Assembly (NCBI RefSeq): GCF_000014005.1
Contig: NC_008009.1
Location: 1,426,001-1,490,000 of the forward strand
DNA length: 64,000 nt
Source of the DNA: Candidatus Koribacter versatilis Ellin345
GTDB taxonomy: Bacteria; Acidobacteriota; Terriglobia; Terriglobales; Acidobacteriaceae
Direction: 5' to 3'
The position numbers and the translations under genes were made by a program. A model generated the notes under the pieces. It worked only from the letters and a program-made list of their open reading frames with translations, was not told where the DNA came from and ran no database searches. Numbering within the stretch: the first letter of the stretch is position 1; each line of letters starts with the position of its first letter. Positions 3,465-57,054 of this stretch are shown here, in pieces.

Positions 3465-4571
3465 TTACTTCGTCGAGAAACGGAAGATGATGATGTGGTG
3501 GAATTTCTGGCCGGGCTTCAGCACGGCGCTGGGGAAGTTGGGCTGGTTCGGAGCGTCGGAGAAATTCTGGGCTTCGAAGGCATAGGCATTGCGGAAGGCG
3601 TATTTGTGTCCACCTTTGCCGGCTACGCCGTCCATGTGATTGCCGCTGTAGAAATGCAGGCCGGGCTGGTCGGTGAGCACGGTGAGAACGCGTCCGCTGG
3701 CAGGATCGTAGGCTTCGGAGGCGGGCACGAGCTTACCGTTGTTGTCGAGAACGTAGGTGATGTCGTAGCCGATGCCGTACTTGAGTTGGTCGTTCGACTT
3801 GTCGTCAACGTGCGCACCGATGGGAGTGAGCTTGCGAAGATCGAGGGGCGTGCCGGCGACATCAGCGAGTTTGCCGGTGGGAATCAGGCCATCGTTTACG
3901 GGGACAACTTTCGCGGCGTTGATCTGCACTTCCTGCTTGGCGACGTCGCCGCTACCTTCACCAGCCAGGTTCCAGTAGGCGTGGTTGGTCAGGTTGAGGA
4001 CGGTGTCCTTGTCGGTGGCAGCGGAGATGTCGAGCTTGAGGTCTTTGCCGATCAGCGTGTAGCGGACGACTGTGGTCAGGGTGCCGGGGAAACCGGCTTC
4101 GCCATCTTTGCTGACGTAAGTCAGTTCAACGCCATTGGCAATCTGCTTGCCTGTCCAAAGCTGCTTGCCAAAATTTTCGGGTCCGCCGTGCAAGGTGTTG
4201 GGGCCGTCGTTCTTGGGGGTATGGAAGTCTTTGCCATCGAGGTTGAAGGTTGCGTTGCCGATGCGACCGGCGTAGCGGCCGACGAGCGAACCGAAGGATG
4301 CACCGTCTTTGACGTAGCCGTCAACGTTGTCGTAGCCGAGGGTGATGTCGGCGGTTTTGCCGTTCTTGTCGGGGGCAAGCAAGGAGACGATGCGCGCACC
4401 GTAGGTGGTGATACGGGCTTCGATGGCGCCGTCTTTGAGGGTATAGATGTCGACGGAGCGGCCGTCGGGCATTTTGCCGAACTCAGATTTGCTGACGGTG
4501 GTTGCGGCGTGGGCAAGTGAGGCGAGAACAGAAAGCGTGAAGAAGACTGCCAAGATGCGGTTATGGAGCAC
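3465..4571 (-). CDS. galM: aldose 1-epimerase (galactose mutarotase), exported
   Basis: Interconverts the alpha and beta anomers of aldoses such as galactose or glucose. The 368-aa length suits the family plus an N-terminal signal peptide (ILAVFFTLSVLASLAHA), so this copy is probably periplasmic. Family marks are GRYAGRIGNATFNLDGK near the N-terminus, the catalytic-histidine segment NLTNHAYWNLAG, and the C-terminal AFEAQNFSDAPNQPNFP with the catalytic glutamate. A GGAGG ribosome site lies about eight bases upstream of the ATG. It appears monocistronic; an exported mutarotase fits sugar scavenging at the cell surface. Confidence 0.9.
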   Translation of the reverse strand: MLHNRILAVFFTLSVLASLAHAATTVSKSEFGKMPDGRSVDIYTLKDGAIEARITTYGARIVSLLAPDKNGKTADITLGYDNVDGYVKDGASFGSLVGRYAGRIGNATFNLDGKDFHTPKNDGPNTLHGGPENFGKQLWTGKQIANGVELTYVSKDGEAGFPGTLTTVVRYTLIGKDLKLDISAATDKDTVLNLTNHAYWNLAGEGSGDVAKQEVQINAAKVVPVNDGLIPTGKLADVAGTPLDLRKLTPIGAHVDDKSNDQLKYGIGYDITYVLDNNGKLVPASEAYDPASGRVLTVLTDQPGLHFYSGNHMDGVAGKGGHKYAFRNAYAFEAQNFSDAPNQPNFPSAVLKPGQKFHHIIIFRFSTK

Positions 4572-54299: not shown

Positions 54300-54311
54300 G
54301 AAACATCAAAG

Positions 54312-54337
54312 GCACGGCTCCGGCCGTGCTTTTGTTT
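54312..54337 (+). terminator. rho-independent terminator after ppdK
   Basis: GCACGGC (54312-54318), loop TCCG, GCCGTGC (54323-54329), then TTTTGTTT. It has a strong seven-base stem and a clear T-run. Confidence 0.9.
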
Positions 54338-54385
54338 GCGGCGATAAAATTTAGTTTTTTGGAATGAGGCCGCCGGTGGGAATGG

Positions 54386-55288
54386 CTAGAGTCGGAGTTC
54401 GGCCCGAGCGATTCGCGCCATGTCAGCTACCTGATACATGTGTCTGAGCACGATCCCATGCTCATCGAAATGCCTCTTGGCGAATTCCAGGTTCTTATTA
54501 TCTGGAGCCAGAGAGTCGTCGATTACCGCGGTCAAATGACCGAATGCATTTTCCTTCTTGCTCATCCCCTCCCGGATCTCCGGCCATGCATATCCGAGCG
54601 TCCGCGCCCCATCGATACTATTTCTCAAACTGACTGCCTGAATTAAGCGGAAGACTCGTCGAGACGTCGAAGGAATGCCGTCAAGATCAATCGCTGCATC
54701 AGAATCAACTTCGTACTTGTAGTGGATTGGGGAAGGATCGGCGCTATCCACGTACTTAGCAATCTTGAAATTCCGGGTCACAAGTGTTTTGTCAATCCCG
54801 TAGTAATCGAATGCCTTGTCGATACTGCGTTTGATGAGGTTTACACCGGTGCGTTCCCGATCAGGCAAGGCCGCGGGGATTTTAAAGTAGCTGGTCGATA
54901 GAGTCTTAGAAGCTGCTTTCGCATCTTCCGCCATCAGCCCCTTAACTTCCGAGATTCGAATCGAGTTCGAGAAAGAATCTTCGATCACGTGACGAAGCCA
55001 TTCGCTTTCGGCCATTACCACGCCACCGCTGGAGCAAATCTTGGCCGCGGAGTTGAATTGCGCAAGAACGCTGTTCTTGAATTCGTAGAAATAGTCCAAT
55101 TCGGAAGCAGGATCGAGTAACCGAACAAGGCGCCAGTCCGAGGTGAGAACCACGTCGAAAAACGGGGCACCGTCGGAGTCGAGTCCGGTCAGGATAAAGC
55201 CAAAAACTACGGCGACCTCCTGCTCCGGATGCGGCACAAACCGCAATACGTAATAGTCAAAGAGTCGAAGAGTTTCTCTTTCCGCCAT
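54386..55288 (-). CDS. DUF3037-like protein with long C-terminal extension, partner of the HipA-like kinase
   Basis: The 300-aa product starts MAERETLRLFDYYVLRFVP at 55288. The start overlaps the kinase stop in TGATG form, so the two are translated together; the frame upstream to 55387 lies inside the kinase gene and is dropped. The first 100 residues (YVLRFVPHPEQEVAVVFGFI, LDPASELDYFYEFK) resemble DUF3037, a short family found beside HipA-like kinases. DUF3037 proteins are usually near 120 aa; here an extra 170-residue part with no recognised domain follows (KRSIDKAFDYYGIDK, DLDGIPSTSRRVFRL). It may be the partner, target or control protein of the kinase. Confidence 0.65.
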   Translation of the reverse strand: MAERETLRLFDYYVLRFVPHPEQEVAVVFGFILTGLDSDGAPFFDVVLTSDWRLVRLLDPASELDYFYEFKNSVLAQFNSAAKICSSGGVVMAESEWLRHVIEDSFSNSIRISEVKGLMAEDAKAASKTLSTSYFKIPAALPDRERTGVNLIKRSIDKAFDYYGIDKTLVTRNFKIAKYVDSADPSPIHYKYEVDSDAAIDLDGIPSTSRRVFRLIQAVSLRNSIDGARTLGYAWPEIREGMSKKENAFGHLTAVIDDSLAPDNKNLEFAKRHFDEHGIVLRHMYQVADMARIARAELRL

Positions 55289-56124
55289 CAGTTCACCTTC
55301 TCCGACCAGTTCACGAAAGGTTTGCGGGACGAGGTTGCGAACGACCAGATGAGTTCTTCCACGCGCGAGCGCCGCTGGATCAGGCAATCGACTAAACGTG
55401 CGAGATCGTCCCAGTCACCGCACCACTCCGGAGGAATGCTTTCGGCCAGTTCGCGAATGGAGTCTTCGTCGAAGTTCTGAATATTTTCCAGCCAAGGGTG
55501 AAAGCTCTTCCAACCGGTCACGCCCGCATAGACTTCATTGCGTCCGTAAACACCGCGCAGCGGAGAATCGGGGAACGACCATTCGCCGGCATTGAAGCAG
55601 TATCCCTGATCAATGAACGTCGCAGTGAACTTGCGCTCGCGGCCCTTTTTCCAGAACGCAGCCTGACGGCCGTTGGCGTTGCAGGTCCATTTGTCGAGAG
55701 CCAGCATCCCGGCGAACTGGTTGAGGTTCTTCACGCGATCGAGCATCGTCTCGGGAAGATAATCGTAGACCAGCCCTTCGTGCGGCGGGCACACATATCG
55801 TGATCCGAATTGCATCCCGGCGCACACGGGTATGGTCTTTCCCGGCAGCTCCAAGCGTAACTCAGACGTGTGCTTGATGAGCCACTCGTCGACCTGGACA
55901 ATCTCCGTTTTAGGTACGTCGAGCCCAACGCGCTCGGCCAACCGTGTGGCGAGAAGATCGTTGGCGAGGACGCGCAGATGCTGCGGGTTGTTCTGGAACT
56001 TGACGACGTAAAGACCGCCGTCGGAGCAGCGCATGAGGTGGGCCTGGGCACCGCCGCGCATGCGTTTTACGTGTTGTACAGCCTGTAACAACGGGGTCTC
56101 TCGACCCTTATCGTAGCGAGACAT
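55288..56124 (-). CDS. HipA-like kinase family protein, stand-alone
   Basis: The 278-aa product is shorter than E. coli HipA (about 440). It has a HipA-like start GGAQAHLMRCSDGGLYVVKF (Lys42) followed by LANDLLATRLAERVGLDVP. A later kinase part LDKWTCNANGRQAAFW (Asp144 and nearby) could be the catalytic loop, and FIDQGYCFNAGEW (Asp172) the metal-binding segment. No HipB-type DNA-binding partner is adjacent. The kinase may phosphorylate a protein or other target; nothing indicates which. It is the first gene of a two-gene minus-strand unit. By eye the pair looks less GC-rich than ppdK, but that needs counting. Confidence 0.75.
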   Translation of the reverse strand: MSRYDKGRETPLLQAVQHVKRMRGGAQAHLMRCSDGGLYVVKFQNNPQHLRVLANDLLATRLAERVGLDVPKTEIVQVDEWLIKHTSELRLELPGKTIPVCAGMQFGSRYVCPPHEGLVYDYLPETMLDRVKNLNQFAGMLALDKWTCNANGRQAAFWKKGRERKFTATFIDQGYCFNAGEWSFPDSPLRGVYGRNEVYAGVTGWKSFHPWLENIQNFDEDSIRELAESIPPEWCGDWDDLARLVDCLIQRRSRVEELIWSFATSSRKPFVNWSEKVN

Positions 56125-56331
56125 CGGTGGGAATCGATGTGCGCTGCGTCACAAAGGCCGGGAGATTCTAAGGCACTTCTTTCATTACCAAAGAACACAT
56201 ATCTTCTCTGGATTATCGCTAAGCCTTTCGGAACTTGTCGGAAAACGAGCTGCTTCGTAATCTCACGGTACTAAGTACACGACAGAGCGAACTCGCAAGT
56301 TGAAGTTTGCCGTACCAGAGGCGAAGTTCCC

Positions 56332-57054
56332 ATGAAGACTGCCATTTTGGCAACCGTCCTATCCCTGATGCTGATCGCAAGTTGCATCTCCTCCTCCGCA
56401 CAAACCAAAAAGACTTTTTCCAACATCCAGAACATGACCGCCTGGACCTCCTGCGACGTTTGCTCGGGTTCCGGCGGCAACGGCAACACCGCTGTCCATT
56501 GGCAAGCCCAGTTCCAGAGCACTCCATCCATGAGCGGTTCTTCCTCGCAGTTCTACTTCGGTGGGGTACAGGCGTATACCTCGGCGCTCTGGTGGGAGCA
56601 GCTTGGATCCAACCCGCAGTACAGCCACTTCAATTACGATTTGCAGTTCTATGTAACGGATATCACCGCGCCGCAGGCGCTCGAGTTCGATGTCAATCAG
56701 TCGCTCAACGGCAAGAAGTACGTCTTCGGCACCGAGTGCGACCTGCGTGGCACCTACAAGGGCTACTGGCGGGTATGGGATGCCACTCTGCATTGGCAGA
56801 ACACCGGCATCGCGTGTACCGGTATCACCGCCAATGCCTGGCACCACCTGGTATGGGAATTTGAACGCACCACCGACGGCCACACGCACTTCATCGCCGT
56901 TACCGTGGATGGAGTTCGCCGCGTGGTCAACCGCTACTACAATCCGTTGAATTCCACGGCGAAAGAATTGAACGTCGCGTTCCAGACGGATGGCAACAAG
57001 TACCCGAATACCTATTCGGTTTGGCTCGACAAAGTCTCACTGATCGCCTGGTAG
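56332..57054 (+). CDS. exported protein of unknown function, paralogue of the 26541 gene
   Basis: The 240-aa protein has a signal peptide (TAILATVLSLMLIASCISSS) with a cysteine that could be a lipid site, though the box is weak. Its mature part has W-T-S-C-D-V-C-S-G-S-G-G, ALEFDVNQSLNGKKYVFGTE, AWHHLVWEFERTTDG, AVTVDGVRRVVNRYYN and YSVWLDKVSLIAW, matching the order of motifs in the 26541 protein. A LamG-like beta-sandwich is suggested. A terminator follows at 57079. It diverges from the HipA-like kinase gene, 207 bases away. Confidence 0.75.
   Translation: MKTAILATVLSLMLIASCISSSAQTKKTFSNIQNMTAWTSCDVCSGSGGNGNTAVHWQAQFQSTPSMSGSSSQFYFGGVQAYTSALWWEQLGSNPQYSHFNYDLQFYVTDITAPQALEFDVNQSLNGKKYVFGTECDLRGTYKGYWRVWDATLHWQNTGIACTGITANAWHHLVWEFERTTDGHTHFIAVTVDGVRRVVNRYYNPLNSTAKELNVAFQTDGNKYPNTYSVWLDKVSLIAW

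Follow-up and report, generated by a model that had tools for sequence, protein, structure and literature searches.

A HipAD-type kinase and DUF3037 gene pair in Candidatus Koribacter versatilis Ellin345, probably displaced from a phage-derived gene cluster

HipA-family kinases paired with a DUF3037 protein were recently described in Escherichia coli prophages as DS-6, since renamed HipAD (PMC13092281, which gives Brenes and Laub 2025 as its source). The HipAD kinase gives phage defence and deletion of the DUF3037 gene is toxic (PMC12548924, PMC13092281); a kinase mutant loses defence, and the partner, described as DUF3037 plus DUF1829, is predicted to form a complex with DNA (PMC13092281). 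A HipA-DUF3037 pair also belongs to Retron-Sda1 (PMC12548924). Here we analyse such a pair in a 64,000-nucleotide stretch of Candidatus Koribacter versatilis Ellin345 (hereafter the window; positions 1,426,001-1,490,000 of a 5,650,368-base single-contig genome), where a HipA-like kinase gene and a DUF3037 gene lie at 1.48 Mb. An earlier note on this DNA had proposed a two-gene stress, immunity or toxin-antitoxin-like module of a type without known function. The latter statement is out of date, since HipAD defence and antidote action have been published, and through this homology the module idea is partly supported, on its immunity or toxin-antitoxin-like side. The pair is probably a displaced HipAD-type toxin-antidote module.

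The closest annotated counterpart is found in phage PhiR5_1, which carries HipA and HipD genes. As in the window, a HipA_2 kinase is followed by a DUF3037 protein (275 amino acids (aa) in PhiR5_1, 300 aa here), the Pfam families are the same, and the two genes overlap shortly, by four bases there and in TGATG form here, as the earlier note had seen. The systems differ in that the C-terminal parts of the partners cannot be aligned by sequence, that the kinases are 25% identical in a profile alignment (E 2.4e-13 for the kinase profile against PhiR5_1 HipA), and that the PhiR5_1 pair adjoins cI, whereas the pair of the window's relatives stands among head genes.

The kinase and its DUF3037 partner

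The kinase scores above the cut-off of Pfam HipA_2 (E 1.7e-10, 41 bits, cut-off 27), is the single HipA_2 match in the whole window genome, and also matches PADLOC PDC-M66A (E 1.6e-7) and phrog_3162 (E 8.1e-14). Asn149 and the three residues proposed earlier as catalytic, Lys42, Asp144 and Asp172, are invariant across 27 of 27 aligned kinases, the window's included. Its AlphaFold model (predicted local distance difference test, pLDDT, 84.8; predicted template modelling score, pTM, 0.85) matches CtkA (E 2.4e-7), HipT and HipA with probability 1.00, as well as other kinases of the same broad fold, so that a HipA-like kinase fold with catalytic Lys/Asp/Asp is confirmed at the level of the model. 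Fold and catalytic residues are shared with HipBA and HipBST. The gene partner is what differs, being DUF3037 here and HipB or HipS there; membership of these systems was rejected, since DUF3037 takes the partner's place in the operon and Pfam recognised no HipB-like gene next to the kinase among flanking open reading frames (ORFs) of at least 80 aa, as the earlier note had stated.

A likeness to PDC-M66 and Retron-Sda1 extends over both proteins of the family: PDC-M66A is matched by all 27 aligned kinases (PADLOC, E <= 0.001) and PDC-M66B by 31 of 32 aligned partners (E <= 1), the sole exception being the window's partner, whose assignment to HipAD therefore rests on its DUF3037 match, its alignment to the other partners and the kinase. 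No reverse transcriptase was recognised by eye in the ORFs neighbouring the pair; no model search was made for it.

The DUF3037 resemblance that the earlier note had seen in the N-terminal part of the partner is borne out by Pfam (E 2.3e-6, 28.2 bits, cut-off 22.6; residues 12-133 only), and the partner-family profile matches PhiR5_1 HipD in its N-terminal part (E 4e-9). An alternative partner ORF of 333 aa exists, starting at a TTG further upstream. The C-terminal half has no Pfam match above cut-off. It aligns over 31 chosen full-length relatives and is thus a feature of the family, not a peculiarity of the window's partner, and the structure model (pLDDT 85.5, pTM 0.60) places it in the second of two domains; the extra part noted earlier is a real domain with a restriction-endonuclease-like resemblance. 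Residues 139-300 were compared with known structures by VIA-align, which gave BstEII (Z 8.6), PspGI (Z 8.5), Can2 (Z 8.2) and XPF (Z 7.3). Most of the top matches are restriction-endonuclease-like enzymes, a Z near 8 being moderate by VIA-align's own note, and unrelated folds come next (acyl-CoA synthetase, Z 7.2; Rab GTPases, Z 5.5-5.8). With Foldseek the partner found Card1 at E 3.7e-3 and no match in the PDB below E 0.001. The third-strand (D/E)xK motif occurs in four of 34 aligned partners and is absent from the window's; the Asp of the preceding strand (column 189) is near-invariant (33/34), the window's partner having His. Since the motif is unconserved and column 189 is His, a binding role is likelier than a cutting one, and the modelled domain is probably nuclease-like and inactive.

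Distribution of the pair and the phage-derived cluster of relatives

The survey covered 396 genomes of the phylum, 44 of them in the window's family (own included). The kinase search matched 64 genomes. In the family 39 of 44 carry it, and in 38 of the 43 other family genomes the match is full-length and 51-67% identical; outside the family the best matches are 41-46% identical. The partner search matched 38 genomes, all in the family (38/44, own included). In 38 of 38 other kinase carriers, phmmer matches the ORF immediately downstream to the window's partner (E <= 1e-3), so conservation of the pair in related genomes is confirmed; this phmmer test is independent, while the locus-profile models, built from the loci's own proteins, show the arrangement. 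Judged by these sequences, the pairing is well beyond chance.

The kinase looks vertically inherited within the family. Its identity to the window protein is 51-67% (38 genomes) and that of AspS 59-69% (29 genomes), pairwise identities of the two proteins are correlated (r 0.82, 435 genome pairs), and quick trees of both recover one and the same clade of eight genomes that includes the window genome (Shimodaira-Hasegawa-like approximate likelihood ratio test 100 and 99). Support for the inner branching is weak; in the kinase tree 15 of 27 inner branches are open.

In 33 of the 38 other carriers the pair stands on one strand in the order terminase (large subunit), kinase, partner, portal; in the remaining five (G257, G273, G281, G241, G007) neither terminase nor portal adjoins it. 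Terminase and portal were named by Pfam and PHROGs on one genome, and the capsid-like protein, for which Pfam and PHROGs gave no match, is called major capsid protein-like (MCP-like) by position and size. Terminase and MCP-like genes are each found in 35 of the 44 family genomes and portal genes in 36, at one place per genome each; none of the three is found in three class relatives outside the family. Pairwise identities follow those of AspS (terminase r 0.78, portal r 0.70; 300 pairs each). The cluster adjoins purE and purK in G297, G217 and G313 (named by Pfam on L048, from another genome), and a 2-oxoacid dehydrogenase E2 gene lies near it in G217, G313, G265 and the window genome, that is, in several genera; in G313 the opposite end of the cluster encodes a sigma-70 region 4 protein. 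From the identities following AspS and the single place per genome, the cluster appears to be a set of structural genes kept in single copy and passed on vertically.

A scan of genome contigs gave 549 kinase relatives, of which the best 80 were examined. Titles of 78 name Acidobacteria or taxa within (Granulicella, Terriglobus, Acidobacterium), one names Rhodanobacteraceae and one "bacterium". Among these best 80 loci, 47 show terminase-kinase-partner-portal, five have terminase and portal with the partner beyond the distance rule, seven have the partner and neither phage gene, 13 are cut by contig ends or mixed, and eight have no partner within the rule and no phage genes; of these eight, L146 has a partner at 411 nucleotides, and in three a short partner is encoded on the opposite strand. 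All 10 IMG/VR contigs found to carry the kinase have a terminase or portal label next to it.

The cluster looks like a gene-transfer-agent candidate in Acidobacteriota, in that it is compact, apparently vertical, structural and present once per genome, as gene transfer agents are. Prophages have been listed in Koribacter and relatives (PMC5900883). In the open-access literature we found neither a gene transfer agent nor a conserved phage-derived cluster of such kind reported for Acidobacteriota, nor the pair between terminase and portal; the accessible part of PMC11924767 holds no mention of HipA or gene transfer agents, and that of PMC8262856 none of DUF3037. HipAD itself is known, while its context, a phage-derived head-gene cluster with a displaced copy, is new. 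In Gratiaviridae a HipA-family kinase gene likewise lies inside the late head-gene block; there it stands between portal and MCP, accompanied by an ATPase and a glycosyltransferase, in the window's relatives between terminase and portal with DUF3037 (PMC8008677). On a Peribacillus plasmid (L087:2901-4792) a glycosyltransferase gene overlaps at its end with a HipA-family kinase gene, recalling the Gratiaviridae neighbourhood.

Such a setting invites the explanation that the pair works within, or regulates, the phage-derived, gene-transfer-agent-like cluster, switching for instance host physiology or packaging, with the likeness to HipAD secondary. The terminase-portal position in 33 of 38 carriers, the terminase and capsid-like genes present once each in 35 family genomes, and the surroundings of purE, purK and the E2 gene across several genera fit this, and there are precedents in a defence-like system that serves gene transfer agents (PMC13236601) and in the Gratiaviridae kinases (PMC8008677). 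We nevertheless consider it unlikely: the pair persists in G257, G281 and G241, where no terminase, capsid-like or portal gene was found, and lies away from the cluster in the window genome and G007, and these solo and displaced pairs weigh against a role confined to the cluster. In the solo pair comparison G281/G241 the ratio of nonsynonymous to synonymous substitution rates (dN/dS) is 0.082 for the kinase and 0.035 for the partner, values inside or close to those of five in-cluster comparisons (0.035-0.203 and 0.028-0.116), which fits purifying selection on the pair without cluster genes.

The same three solo and two separated pairs, together with the published toxicity upon DUF3037 deletion (PMC12548924), would also suit an addiction relic, in which loss of the antidote is lethal and the pair stabilises the cluster or itself without host benefit. 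Loss is possible, however, as five of the 44 family genomes have neither an orthologous kinase nor terminase, MCP-like or portal genes, and the congener G396 has no kinase or portal match, albeit in a 93% complete assembly. The five genomes weigh against strict addiction, which we regard as somewhat improbable.

Some further arrangements were seen among the collected loci. In G007 the pair, terminase and portal are on three contigs (C16, C25, C88; L070, L105, L106), whereas G171, G345 and G388 of the same genus keep them together; either G007 is a second case of displacement or its assembly is faulty. Five kinase loci without the phage cluster (L146, L154, L163, L167, L177) carry a gene for a 153-161-aa dual-specificity-phosphatase-like protein directly upstream of the kinase (HCAAGVHR by eye), giving a phosphatase-kinase(-DUF3037) operon arrangement; of the four loci scanned, L146, L163 and L177 have DSPc above cut-off and L154 has it below (27.8 of 33.5 bits). 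A short DUF3037-only partner (127-148 aa) adjoins the kinase on the opposite strand at four loci, with Pfam run on L182 only. Distant HipA_2 kinases (27-30% identical) at L079, L080, L081 and L082 are each followed by a 130-144-aa ORF that the window's partner does not match, that of L080 having no Pfam match; G329 has two such distant kinase loci plus a third in two pieces.

Divergence and probable displacement of the window copy

The window genome keeps its own phage-derived cluster, likewise a gene-transfer-agent candidate, at about 5.163-5.183 Mb (G000:C1:5163001-5183492; L098, L099), with sigma-like, long fibre-like, terminase, portal, MCP-like and tail-like genes. An E2 acyltransferase gene, identified by Pfam and 58% identical to that of a relative, lies nearby and suggests the ancestral site. 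The terminase-portal slot of this cluster holds a 23S-rRNA-IVP four-helix protein (6.5e-34) and a TonB_C protein (4e-20); a pair hidden there was rejected, as tblastn found no kinase or partner remnant better than chance. In the congener G396, ppdK (93% identical) and an aligned hairpin are followed by the counterpart of a 240-aa ORF, with no pair between. As this assembly (93% complete, 6% contaminated) has no kinase, partner or portal match, the empty site could in principle be a deletion. Displacement of the window copy, with the pair now between ppdK and a predicted secreted-protein gene and the cluster elsewhere, is the likelier event on these comparisons, because the slot is present in the cluster of all in-cluster relatives. 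Membership of the relatives' pair in a phage-derived cluster, this displacement and the abnormal divergence of the partner go beyond the earlier note.

Several observations weigh against reading the pair as a HipAD-type toxin-antidote module. Near-fixed vertical inheritance is unlike the patchy occurrence typical of a defence gene. Of 76 near-invariant partner positions, 41 are changed in the window's protein (median 1.4%), its end branch measures 3.87 where the median is 0.22, and it has no match to PDC-M66B up to E 10, so it may have an altered antidote function or none. Among 39 kinases the window's deviates most (14 of 120 near-invariant positions changed, against a median of 1.7%), with an end branch of 0.41 against a median of 0.19. 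DUF1829, described at the C-terminus of DS-6B, gave no Pfam match in the window's partner or in PhiR5_1 HipD, and hhalign scored it at 17.2 against the partner C-terminus, below the best of 40 column shuffles (19.0). The whole partner model matches a viral DUF1828 protein (E 4.3e-6). A C-terminal DUF1829 is thus not reproduced by sequence and weakly favoured by the modelled structure.

Elsewhere partner identity tracks kinase identity, and the window's partner averages 0.213 below this fit (residual standard deviation 0.056, 703 pairs), with both of its domains similarly diverged (mean identity 25% and 27%); by these sequence comparisons the protein is abnormally diverged. That a foreign partner was swapped in is unsupported. 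Its best matches among the 80 genome loci, at about 100 bits, are partners of related bacteria, and no relatives of it were found in viral contigs; as its nearest relatives are those bacteria's partners, fast divergence is preferred over a foreign swap.

This divergence could also reflect decay of the window copy, the partner having lost its function and the kinase being tolerated or inactive. The partner and kinase changes listed above would follow from decay, and the congener G396 does not keep the pair. Decay is nonetheless improbable, for both frames are open, the overlap and the catalytic residues are intact, and the partner model is confident.

Coordinates are collected in Table 1. The pair is flanked by ppdK (Pfam) and by a 240-aa ORF at 56332, which looks secreted by eye and has no Pfam match; a "LamG-like" label for it was dropped, as Pfam gives no support. 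The ORF listing of the window covered ORFs of at least 80 aa, and two short upstream ORFs (56222-56527 and 56274-56531, minus strand) have no Pfam match. A palindrome at 56067-56088 falls within the kinase gene, and promoter and terminator scans gave about as many hits as expected by chance (1 against 0.7 and 4 against 2.8). The direct repeat CGGTGGGAAT flanks the pair exactly. As a target-site duplication it is doubtful, since a third copy lies in the window (3875-3884; three copies against 0.19 expected) and the congener site is too diverged for comparison.

Table 1. Features of the gene pair and of loci with other arrangements (positions in the window unless a locus is given)
Feature	Position	Strand	Basis or remark
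HipA_2-family Ser/Thr kinase, 278 aa (relative of HipAD HipA / PDC-M66A)	55288..56124	-	Pfam, PADLOC, phrog_3162, PhiR5_1 profile, AlphaFold model
DUF3037 partner, 300 aa from ATG, putative antidote (relative of HipD / PDC-M66B)	54386..55288	-	Pfam; family profile against phage HipD
Partner N-terminal domain (DUF3037), about residues 1-136	54881..55288	-	Pfam residues 12-133; limit read from model
Partner C-terminal domain, residues 149-300, restriction-endonuclease-like resemblance, usual (D/E)xK motif unconserved	54389..54844	-	VIA-align; motif count
TGATG stop-start overlap	55286..55290	-	sequence; kinase stop TGA 55290-55288, partner ATG 55288-55286
Kinase Lys42 codon, invariant 27/27	55999..56001	-	kinase alignment
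Kinase Asp144 codon (DKW..N motif), invariant 27/27	55693..55695	-	kinase alignment
Kinase Asp172 codon (FIDQG motif), invariant 27/27	55609..55611	-	kinase alignment
Approximate insertion span relative to congener's empty site	54334..56184	.	alignment with L228; edges uncertain by tens of bases (intergenic DNA diverged)
Terminator-like hairpin following ppdK, with a counterpart at the congener's empty site (27 aligned bases, 89% identical)	54307..54334	.	congener alignment
Left copy of 10-bp direct repeat CGGTGGGAAT, 2 bp past partner stop codon	54374..54383	+	possible insertion footprint, unproven
Right copy of CGGTGGGAAT, directly before kinase start codon	56125..56134	+	repeat search
Phosphatase-like gene	L146:3777-4244		
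Phosphatase-like gene	L154:1210-1695		
Phosphatase-like gene	L163:5042-5512		
Phosphatase-like gene	L167:8502-8969		
Phosphatase-like gene	L177:8509-8970		
Opposite-strand short partner	L165:8259-8705		
Opposite-strand short partner	L182:8188-8622		
Opposite-strand short partner	L215:8375-8761		
Opposite-strand short partner	L199:1909-2292		

A possible course of events and its meaning

The analysis directly supports the family membership and the fold of the kinase and the conservation of the pair, and likewise that kinase and AspS trees agree, that the window's pair is displaced and that its partner has diverged. For a displaced HipAD-type module, the ancestral place would most likely be the terminase-portal gap of the vertically inherited phage-derived cluster. 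From there the pair would have moved as a bare two-gene unit to the site between ppdK and the predicted secreted-protein gene, after which the kinase frame stayed intact and the partner stayed open while diverging strongly. By analogy with published relatives, which suggest the toxin, antidote and defence roles, the free HipA-family Ser/Thr kinase would stop growth or abort phage infection, and the DUF3037 domain would bind the kinase and hold it in check. What triggers the kinase, what it targets and what the C-terminal domain does are pure inference on our part: infection may release the kinase, which would then phosphorylate a host target, and the nuclease-like, probably inactive domain may, as a guess, sense or bind DNA or a phage component.

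More tentatively, and as a possibility we hold with some doubt, the HipAD-type pair may be a core part of an ancient, vertically inherited, gene-transfer-agent-like element of this acidobacterial family, where, placed between terminase and portal, it would link the making of particles to what befalls the cell that produces them, or guard the element. It would then outlive a lost or broken element as a host gene, and in the window genome it would have moved out, with its antidote being remade.

A HipAD-type pair is thus near-fixed in a family of soil bacteria, apparently built into a phage-derived head-gene cluster and sometimes present where the cluster genes are gone. This bears on the question of what becomes of defence genes once their phage carrier is domesticated. 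Natural replicates are available in the form of genomes with the cluster and the pair, the pair alone, the pair displaced, or both lost, and given the inherited cluster context in related bacteria the role of the pair becomes newly testable.

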